Of a stretch of 32,803 nucleotides of DNA, positions 6,474-31,100 are shown piece by piece. The notes beneath the pieces are model-generated. The model did not search any database, had not been told where the DNA came from, and saw only the letters and a program-made list of their open reading frames with translations. Position numbers and translations under genes: made by a program. The DNA comes from Bacteroidales bacterium (GTDB taxonomy: Bacteria > Bacteroidota > Bacteroidia > Bacteroidales > Paludibacteraceae): contig JAAYQF010000069.1 in the NCBI GenBank assembly GCA_012519425.1, positions 1 to 32,803 on the forward strand, given 5' to 3'. Numbering within the stretch: position 1 is the stretch's first letter; every line of letters starts with the position of its first letter.

Positions 6474-6543
6474 AAACCCGACCCCGGAACCCGCACCCTG
6501 GAAGTCGCAACCCGTGCAAATCCGCTCAATCCGCATCATCCGT
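6474..6543. repeat. Degenerate heptamer and nonamer repeat tract
   Basis: Six consecutive 7-bp units of the AACCCGC type (for example ACCCCGG, AACCCGC, ACCCTGG, AACCCGT) cover 6474-6515. Three 9-10-bp units ending in ATCCGC or ATCCGT follow to 6543. The tract lies just downstream of the stop of the barrel gene at 6568. It contains CGACCCCGGAAC, which also occurs in the tract at 30291-30521. Confidence 0.6.
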
Positions 6544-24557: not shown

Positions 24558-24559
24558 GA

Positions 24560-24594
24560 GATAGTGGTTGGTGGATAGTGATTAGTGGATAGCG
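24560..24594. repeat. Five degenerate heptamers between lipoprotein and receptor genes
   Basis: Consecutive 7-mers GATAGTG, GTTGGTG, GATAGTG, ATTAGTG and GATAGCG start 2 bp after a stop codon. Their complements (CACTATC, CACCAAC) match words of the long tract at 30291-30521. The tract also supplies a GTG at 24585 in frame with the receptor, which is probably not used. Confidence 0.65.
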
Positions 24595-24599
24595 GAAAA

Positions 24600-29653: not shown

Positions 29654-30289
29654 ATGACAATTAAATTGTTTACTTTCAATCCCGTACAAGTGAACACCTA
29701 TGTTTTGCACGACGAAACCGGTGAAGCAATCGTGATCGATGCCGGATGTTTTAACACACAAGAAAAGCGGCTGCTGCAAAGCTACATAGACGATAACCGA
29801 CTGAAATTGGTACGGGTATTAAACACACATTTACACTTTGATCATCAGTTTGGCAACAAATTTTTGTTCGATGCCTATGGATTGAAACCCGAAGCCCACC
29901 GGGCTGACGAGTTTTTGTTGGAGTATGTAAAGGCCGGCAATGTAGTATATGGTTTTCCCTTTTCGGAAAATGCCCAGCCATTGGGAGCATATCTACAGGA
30001 AGATCAATTGATTAAATTTGGAAACACCGTCCTGAAAACCATCCATGTACCCGGTCACAGTCCGGGACATGTGGTTTTTTATAACGAAAGAGAAAAAGTG
30101 TTGTTTGCAGGGGATGTTTTATTCAACGGCTCCATCGGCCGCACCGACTTGGAGCAAGGTGACTATGCCACCCTGATCAGAAACATTCAGGAAAAATTGA
30201 TGACATTACCCGATGACACAATAGTATATCCCGGTCATGGTCCAAGCACAAGCATCGGAGAAGAAAGAAAATACAACCCGTTTTTATGA
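29654..30289 (+). CDS. MBL-fold metallo-hydrolase (glyoxalase II-like)
   Basis: This cytoplasmic metallo-beta-lactamase-fold hydrolase has 211 residues. The metal-binding motif is HLHFDHQ (HxHxDH), with further ligands in VPGHSPGHVVF, FAGDVLFNGSIGRTDL and the C-terminal YPGHGPSTSIGEE. This is the pattern of glyoxalase II-like or persulfide dioxygenase-like enzymes, here the short form common in anaerobes that lack the C-terminal domain of classic glyoxalase II. Substrate unknown; a thioester or sulfur-containing metabolite is most likely. It may have a structured leader upstream, and a heptamer repeat tract begins 2 bp after its stop. Confidence 0.9.
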   Translation: MTIKLFTFNPVQVNTYVLHDETGEAIVIDAGCFNTQEKRLLQSYIDDNRLKLVRVLNTHLHFDHQFGNKFLFDAYGLKPEAHRADEFLLEYVKAGNVVYGFPFSENAQPLGAYLQEDQLIKFGNTVLKTIHVPGHSPGHVVFYNEREKVLFAGDVLFNGSIGRTDLEQGDYATLIRNIQEKLMTLPDDTIVYPGHGPSTSIGEERKYNPFL

Positions 30290-30290
30290 A

Positions 30291-30521
30291 AACAAAGAGC
30301 AAAGACAAAAGACAAAAGAATAAAGACGAAGAACTAAGAACGAAGAACGAAGCCAAAAGCCAAGAGCTAAAAGCCAAAAGCTAAACTCGCGACCCCGGAA
30401 CACGGAACTCGTAACTTCCCTAACTTCTTTAACTTCTTCTAACTTCCAAAAACTACCAACTACTATCTACCAACTCCCAACTACTAAAACCAACTTCCCT
30501 AACTTCTTTAACTTCCAAAAA
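30291..30521. repeat. Long degenerate heptamer tract filling a convergent gap
   Basis: About 231 bp between the convergent stops of the MBL and nadD genes consist almost wholly of 6-10-bp units, mostly 7-mers. They fall in blocks: AAG-ending (ACAAAAG, AACGAAG, CCAAAAG) at 30291-30380, AAC-ending (CCGGAAC, TACCAAC, TACTATC) at 30395-30481, and 9-10-mers (TTCCCTAAC, TTCTTTAAC). A 24-bp exact direct repeat is at 30413-30436 and 30492-30515. No terminator hairpin was found here. Confidence 0.8.
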
Positions 30522-31100
30522 TCATCGTTCATAAACCCTCTTCTCTGCAATATATTCCACCACCTTCGGATGCAGCCATGCCGACACATCTTCTCCTTTT
30601 CTGATCATCTCTCTGATTTGGGTGGAAGAAATATCGTAAAGCGGAGTGTCTAACAACTGCATTTGGGGATATTGAGCAGCCACTGTAGAAAAATCATATC
30701 CTTTTCTGGGATAAACCAACACAGGATAAGTATCTAAAATCTGTTGATACTCTTTCCATTGGTCGAATATTACGGCATTATCGCTTCCTATCACCAGCAA
30801 AAACCGGTGTTGGGGATGGAGTTCGGTCAGTTTTTTTAATGTATCCACGGTATAGGAAGGTACGGGCATGGTAAACTCCACATCTGAAACTTTTATGCGA
30901 GGATTGTCACCAACCGCAGCTGCCACCATTTCCATACGAGTATATTCATCGGGTTGATGTTCCACATCTTTTAACGGATTAGACGGAGTAACTACAAGCC
31001 ACACTTCATCTGCCAACTTTTTGTCAAGCACATACTCAGCTAATTTCTGATGACCCAGATGAATGGGATTAAAGGATCCGGAATAAATAGCTATTTGCAT
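30522..31100 (-). CDS. nadD: Nicotinate-nucleotide adenylyltransferase NadD
   Basis: It adenylates nicotinate mononucleotide to deamido-NAD in NAD biosynthesis. The 192 residues begin MQIAIYSGSFNPIHLGHQKLAEYVL with the GSFNPxHxGH nucleotidyltransferase motif. VTPSNPLKD, MPVPSYTVDTLKKL and the C-terminal ISSTQIREMIRKGE (SxTxIR) follow. Length is usual. It is transcribed divergently from pepT. Its own -7 box (TACTTTTG, 31126-31133 on the minus strand) lies inside the pepT promoter spacer. Confidence 0.96.
   Translation of the reverse strand: MQIAIYSGSFNPIHLGHQKLAEYVLDKKLADEVWLVVTPSNPLKDVEHQPDEYTRMEMVAAAVGDNPRIKVSDVEFTMPVPSYTVDTLKKLTELHPQHRFLLVIGSDNAVIFDQWKEYQQILDTYPVLVYPRKGYDFSTVAAQYPQMQLLDTPLYDISSTQIREMIRKGEDVSAWLHPKVVEYIAEKRVYER

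Follow-up and report, generated by a model that had tools for sequence, protein, structure and literature searches.

Heptamer repeats are over-represented in many bacterial genomes and, as of 2015, had been little studied (PMC4692102). According to the available text of one report, direct repeats of the heptamer TAACTGA occur in intergenic DNA of Beggiatoaceae, Cyanobacteria and five Bacteroidetes, in some genomes mixed with other heptamers; indels between a pair of Cyanothece strains come mainly in steps of seven, and in a Beggiatoa genome most of the repeats lie a short distance upstream of start codons and with a single orientation (PMC4679880). The GGGNATC heptamer arrays of Xanthomonas and Nostoc are dispersed and over-represented in non-coding DNA, and 83% of them lie in matching gene contexts in a pair of Xanthomonas species, with differing lengths; the portion of that source at hand also mentions three heptanucleotides for Calothrix (PMC4692102).

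Here we analyse a 32,803-nucleotide stretch of a Bacteroidales genome (the window), in which a heptamer tract occupies the gap between two convergent genes. As with TAACTGA, known from Bacteroidetes among others, the repeats are intergenic and direct; in contrast to those single-word repeats, for which the available text describes no ordered layout, ours are built of several blocks in order (PMC4679880). The word TAACTGA itself occurs on neither strand of the window tract. Like the GGGNATC arrays, the tracts are dispersed through non-coding DNA at sites kept between species, with varying length, whereas GGGNATC is, in the text available, a G-rich single word with G-quadruplex evidence and here there are several words and no such unit (PMC4692102). 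In the window tract, four runs of 3-4 G stand on the minus strand, 18-55 bases apart and not in four consecutive heptamers, and none on the plus strand. Borg tandem repeats share fast evolution and an A-rich strand with the present family, but they are described, in the accessible part of the report, as having perfect units, as lying within genes in 43-65% of cases and as reportedly of independent origins, unlike the family found here (PMC9879509). Within the general class of heptanucleotide short tandem repeats of bacteria, the window tract has the characteristic head-to-tail units of about 7 bp. The Calothrix heptanucleotides, which we take to be the cyanobacterial STRR, are likewise 7-bp words repeated in tandem in a bacterium (the comparison is by description only), and we know of no ordered composite among them; the likeness to cyanobacterial heptamer repeats drawn in the initial annotation is reasonable. 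Intergenic heptamer repeats are thus known in themselves, but for an ordered multi-block layout the listings of our open-access literature searches show no earlier report.

The window tract and its copies in the genome

The stop-to-stop gap (30290-30521) measures 232 bp, one base more than the 30291-30521 given in the initial annotation, and the heptamer tract fills its whole length (Table 1). Identity at lag 7 is 0.584, whereas 1000 dinucleotide shuffles have a mean of 0.310 and not one attains the observed value (z 8.9); the periodicity claimed for the entire gap is real. Identity is high at lags 14, 21 and 28 too (0.511, 0.443 and 0.424), declining with distance. The units are mainly 7-mers and 9-mers, with period-7 rows returned by a tandem repeat finder. 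The drift from one word family to another along the tract agrees with what had been described, and the 24-bp exact direct repeat (AACTTCCCTAACTTCTTTAACTTC) is present at 30413-30436 and 30492-30515. The flanking nucleotidyltransferase gene is probably nadD.

Table 1. Parts of the heptamer tract and the genes that flank it in the window
Feature	Coordinates	Strand	Evidence
Entire tract, a copy of the dispersed family, A-rich (+) orientation	30290..30521	+	lag-7 z 8.9; BLAST matches in own genome
Block P, AAAGACA / AAAGAGC purine 7-mers	30290..30325	+	sequence, tandem repeats, block count
Block Q, ACGAAGA 7-mers	30326..30352	+	sequence, tandem repeats, block count
Block S, AAGCCAA / AAAGCTA 7-mers	30350..30385	+	sequence, tandem repeats, block count
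Block X, core CTCGCGACCCCGGAACACGGAACTCG	30385..30411	+	within 52-bp exact match to C40:5569, same genome
Block N, TAACTTCNN 9-mers	30412..30450	+	sequence, tandem repeats, direct repeat, block count
Block Y, AACTACC / AACTACT 7-mers	30451..30491	+	sequence, tandem repeats, block count
Second N block, carries copy 2 of the 24-bp exact repeat	30492..30521	+	direct-repeat search
Flanking metallo-beta-lactamase-fold hydrolase gene	29654..30289	+	PF00753, E 6.6e-35
Flanking nucleotidyltransferase gene	30522..31100	-	PF01467, E 5.7e-21

Two other repeats were noted in the window. A second short heptamer tract, with unit GATAGTGATTAGTG, occupies the 42-bp gap of two co-directional genes at 24558-24599, and a tandem repeat at 6475-6514 has a 14-bp unit, AACCCGCACCCCGG (2 x 7), that resembles X words.

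The window tract is one copy of a dispersed intergenic repeat family and is not private to one convergent gap. Searched by BLAST against its own genome (2.39 Mb), it gives 85 matches at E up to 1, a count that takes in the self match and overlapping pieces, with 40 of 123 candidates scored. We sampled 731 kb of this genome, consisting of 14 contigs, the window included, that were picked among tract-matching ones and not at random; genes were called by a simple script (90% coding). Lag-7 tracts in this sample number 51 in intergenic and 2 in coding DNA, the many copies and intergenic over-representation of the general heptanucleotide class, while the best lag between 4 and 30 that is not a multiple of 7, lag 9, gives 13 and 3. 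Among the 317 gaps that measure 47 bp or more, 37 contain a lag-7 tract, against 0, 0, 0, 1 and 1 in five shuffled sets; the same gaps give 9 at lag 8, 21 at lag 9 and none at lags 5, 6, 10 and 11. The intergenic lag-7 peak that the initial annotation proposed to look for genome-wide is therefore present in the sampled 731 kb.

Tracts, here taken as lag 7, 8 or 9 in gaps of at least 30 bp, are found in 35 of the 249 co-directional gaps, in 7 of the 61 divergent ones and in 4 of the 33 convergent ones; with frequencies so nearly equal, convergent gaps are not favoured. The convergent hydrolase/nadD pair is itself old, and is retained in 22 of 29 relatives with gaps of -44 to 73 bp; beyond the sister pair, the next relatives stand at about 72% NadD identity. 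Both observations leave the suggested role as a spacer between convergent genes unsupported. In a distant member of the genus (L094) the gap after nadD is 23 bp long and resembles two or three P words; it is possible that this is a tract seed.

Block order and comparison with a sister species

Tracts were compared in the genome of the window (G000) and in its sister species, Bacteroidetes bacterium ADurb.Bin174 (G005), of whose roughly 2.9 Mb the tests of proximity and orientation covered 1.17 Mb; the median identity of orthologs is 94% (289 genes in the samples). Eight word classes recur in nearly one order, namely O (TTTAATG), R (TTGTTGAA), P (AAAGACA), Q (ACGAAGA), S (AAGCCAA), X (CGGAACAC), N (TAACTTCNN) and Y (AACTACT), as derived from the 59 orientable tracts among 108, with the two species pooled and orientation assigned from word content, independently of block order. 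Six pairwise relations are always kept: block N follows P (34/34) and X (31/31), Y follows P (26/26) and X (23/23), and X follows Q (25/25) and S (8/8). Exceptions occur for N before Y (28/33), P/Q (22/28), P/X (23/24), O/P (5/8), R/P (6/12) and R/Q (6/8). Because the order had been read from these first data, we retested it on 377 kb of fresh sister contigs, in which 14 of 23 tracts could be oriented: 68 of 71 block pairs agree and all three exceptions are P/Q, in a test that is not fully independent since the fresh loci may include orthologs of earlier ones. Many of the un-orientable tracts (49 of the 108 and 9 of the 23) we take to be weak or AT-rich stretches.

The proposal of the initial annotation that the tract grew by repeated local duplication with mutation holds in part. 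Pooled over 81 tracts, unit identity falls from 0.544 at lag 7 through 0.499, 0.430, 0.409 and 0.368 to 0.351 at lag 42, then to 0.327 at lag 49 and about 0.305 at lags 63 and 70, a decay that copying of units from close neighbours, followed by drift, should produce. A purely local origin, in contrast, does not account for the same order at dozens of loci, which is most simply explained if a composite was copied around the genome.

The tracts occupy shared sites in the two species. In an earlier sample of 176 conserved gene pairs, 19 had a tract in both species, 17 of them distinct (two being one locus twice), and 7 in one species only; by eye, two of these seven have sister-only X words and five are noise or borderline. 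Since 11 of the 17 sister partners in this ortholog set had been chosen for their tract pattern, we recounted on whole G005 contigs, where 178 conserved gaps comprise 14 with a tract in both species, 2 in the own genome only and 4 in the sister only, all six of the latter kinds being borderline, at or near threshold or noise. Strand skew is conserved in 16 of the 17 orthologous tract pairs. Lengths diverge (e.g., 388 vs 215 and 295 vs 187 bp), whereas identity over aligned columns is 70-92% in the tracts against 84-100% in flanks long enough to align (81% in one flank of 16 bp); as the former is not far below the latter, change has been mostly in length and blocks. The initial annotation proposed to look for unit-number changes at this locus between close strains; between the sister species, the unit content of the tracts does change, in length and in block make-up. 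Mean local alignment scores are 0.45 for orthologous tracts and 0.31 for other loci, but the ortholog is the top match in only 6 of 17 cases, and in the other 11 a higher score belongs to one of the set's 16 remaining sister tracts; orthologous likeness persists but is often swamped by likeness to other loci.

A repeat resembling a MITE, its ends of the GGCTGTCTCA / TGAGACACC type, was also observed, in the gaps opposite G000 C138:20914 (L048) and C53:61607 (L052) and at C129:40904. Repeats of the same type lie at G005 C23:8595 and C23:14308, and some copies enclose X-type heptamer words.

The joint X and N pattern, searched over a collection of genome contigs from 84,980 species in a scan that may omit records of the own genome, gives 34 stretches, all from Bacteroidetes bacterium ADurb.Bin174. 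Some match to the window tract at E up to 0.001 is present in 28 of 60 genomes, the own one included and with at most 13 candidates scored per genome; among the matches listed, those outside G000 and G005 cover part of the tract only. Two genomes of the same genus, G004 and G023, have dispersed heptamer words of their own, partly different. In contigs mostly chosen because they held a match, intergenic lag-7 tracts number 8 in G004, 6 in G023, 3 in G059, which belongs to another family, and 1 in G002; lag 9 gives 7 in G004 and lag 10 gives 3 in G059, so that lag 7 does not stand alone there. Generality across the order is weak: a stretch from each of 20 further genomes within it (248 kb in all, two of the stretches consisting of the letter N only) yielded a single real lag-7 tract and no prominent lag. 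A control, 50 kb of E. coli K-12, had no lag-7 tract, a single one at lag 18 and another at lag 21.

A universal word vocabulary, considered for viral contigs, is unsupported by scrambled-control counts and by a test for partner blocks. Three copies of TAACTTCNN occur in 42 viral stretches (L175-L216) against 13 in the scrambled control, and three copies of AACTACT in 13 against 0, but AAAGACA x3 gives 3 against 9. By a loose test, one of the 42 TAACTTCNN stretches has a possible P block and the remaining 41 are without other blocks.

Origin of the tracts and alternative readings

We think it somewhat likely that the tracts form a dispersed composite tandem-repeat family, indifferent to orientation, that is rewritten by gain and loss of units and by copying between loci and is probably non-functional. 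An ancestral composite P-Q-S-X-N-Y, sometimes preceded by O and R, would have spread to many intergenic sites before the own and sister species split. Each copy would then have been rewritten as 7-mer and 9-mer units were gained and lost through replication slippage or unequal pairing, and blocks may have been copied between loci by gene conversion or template switching. The tracts would persist as tolerated, selfish or neutral DNA, lost only where genes would break.

Block copying between loci is likely, with support in the own genome and no significant effect in the sister. Different loci have in common exact blocks of 41-54 bp with weak periodicity, among them the 52 bp shared by the window and C40:5569. 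In the own genome, tract pairs less than 30 kb apart, a limit chosen after near pairs had been observed, share longer blocks than distant pairs (23.3 vs 18.2, p 0.0035) and have higher alignment scores (49.2 vs 36.1, p 0.0012), and the best partner is a near one in 13 of 28 tracts, against an expectation of 1.9; with eight further loci added, the p values are 0.0087 and 0.0040 and near best partners 8 of 31 against 1.7. Among 40 sister tracts the effect is not significant (p 0.17 for blocks and 0.13 for scores; near partner in 4 of 36 against 1.95), nor is it in the 14 new ones alone (p 0.56 and 0.21; 5 of 13 against 2.15). A spreading burst just before the split could itself explain much of the likeness between loci. 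A search for an inserted copy with clean target-site marks found none. The depletion of self-complementary 7-mers (282 vs 435) was set aside as evidence because tandem repetition alone leaves fewer distinct 7-mers.

Selection is another possible reason for the shared sites and order. The tracts might be functional arrays, for example sites for a heptad-reading protein or RNA factor with their order under selection, and the retention of sites, strand skew and block order between species despite changes of length and blocks is what such arrays would display; we nevertheless regard this as unlikely. Counts of sense to antisense tracts relative to co-directional genes are 15:11, 10:10 and 7:1 in three samples, the last of them (the new G005 contigs) leaning to sense, and when pooled (32:22, p 0.22) they amount to no significant orientation bias, nor to the one forward orientation upstream of start codons described for TAACTGA in Beggiatoa; the window copy lies between two stops. 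Nor is there significant bias towards a gap class. The window tract has no RNA structure in excess of shuffles on either strand, a search of 30200-30620 against Rfam gave no match at E up to 1, and a terminator search of the tract found none. A Bacteroidota-type promoter pattern was counted over 81 tracts at 18 against 14.1 in shuffles on one strand and 6 against 4.9 on the other, not clearly above shuffles, and promoter arrays were rejected on these counts. The lack of significant orientation bias, together with promoter patterns not clearly above shuffle level, favours tolerated, neutral or selfish DNA over a regulatory array, a preference that we hold with moderate confidence; in the absence of significant orientation or gap-class bias, the tracts are most likely tolerated, selfish or neutral.

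There is also a slim chance that the order of the blocks amounts to a genuine syntax, maintained through selection or through a rewriting process dedicated to it. If so, an enzyme system or heptad-reading factor of the genus would rebuild the tracts from a shared stock of words, and place, orientation and order, but not the exact letters, would be inherited at conserved intergenic sites.

Independent origin of each tract by local slippage and drift, with shared words reflecting a common mutational bias, would suit the greater similarity of units to their near neighbours, the occurrence of recent homogeneous runs (e.g., repeated GAAGTTAGA in L021) and the partly different words of lag-7 tracts in other genomes of the genus. 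It is quite improbable, however, because a nearly fixed order recurring at dozens of loci in both species and the long exact blocks shared across loci, being only weakly periodic, point to common descent or copying.

In the sister, the two genes that flank the window tract sit on separate contigs, each with a tract at its 3' side, and bases 2-20 past the hydrolase stop are identical in G005 and the window, although P words are common. Most simply, the window tract is older than the species split and was later broken within. That the tracts are recombination sites driving genome rearrangement is suggested by this locus and by the frequency of tracts at broken and conserved neighbour pairs (11/61 vs 14/166, p 0.055), but once gaps are restricted to 47 bp and above, the difference is not significant (11/50 vs 14/94, p 0.36), and the comparison included sister loci selected for tracts, a possible bias. 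A reciprocal exchange with the former neighbour of nadD's new neighbour was looked for in the own genome and none was found. We consider a driving role very unlikely.

That the window tract is the passenger of a classical mobile element, a MITE or insertion sequence remnant, is hardly credible: X-type words do lie next to a MITE-like repeat that ends in GGTGTCTCA / GGCTGTCTCA in the two gaps with sister-only words (opposite C138:20914 and C53:61607), but the tract lacks the inverted repeats of a MITE or REP-type element (0 found), TGTCTCA or its complement stands within 250 bp of 4 of the 33 X-word clusters listed for both samples, so that the MITE is not a general carrier, and a plasmid origin was rejected because no plasmid match to the tract was found.

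Tract similarity is a poor guide to orthology in this pair of species. Since a close species pair carries ordered multi-word copies at shared sites, the making and change of 7-bp repeats could become directly measurable.
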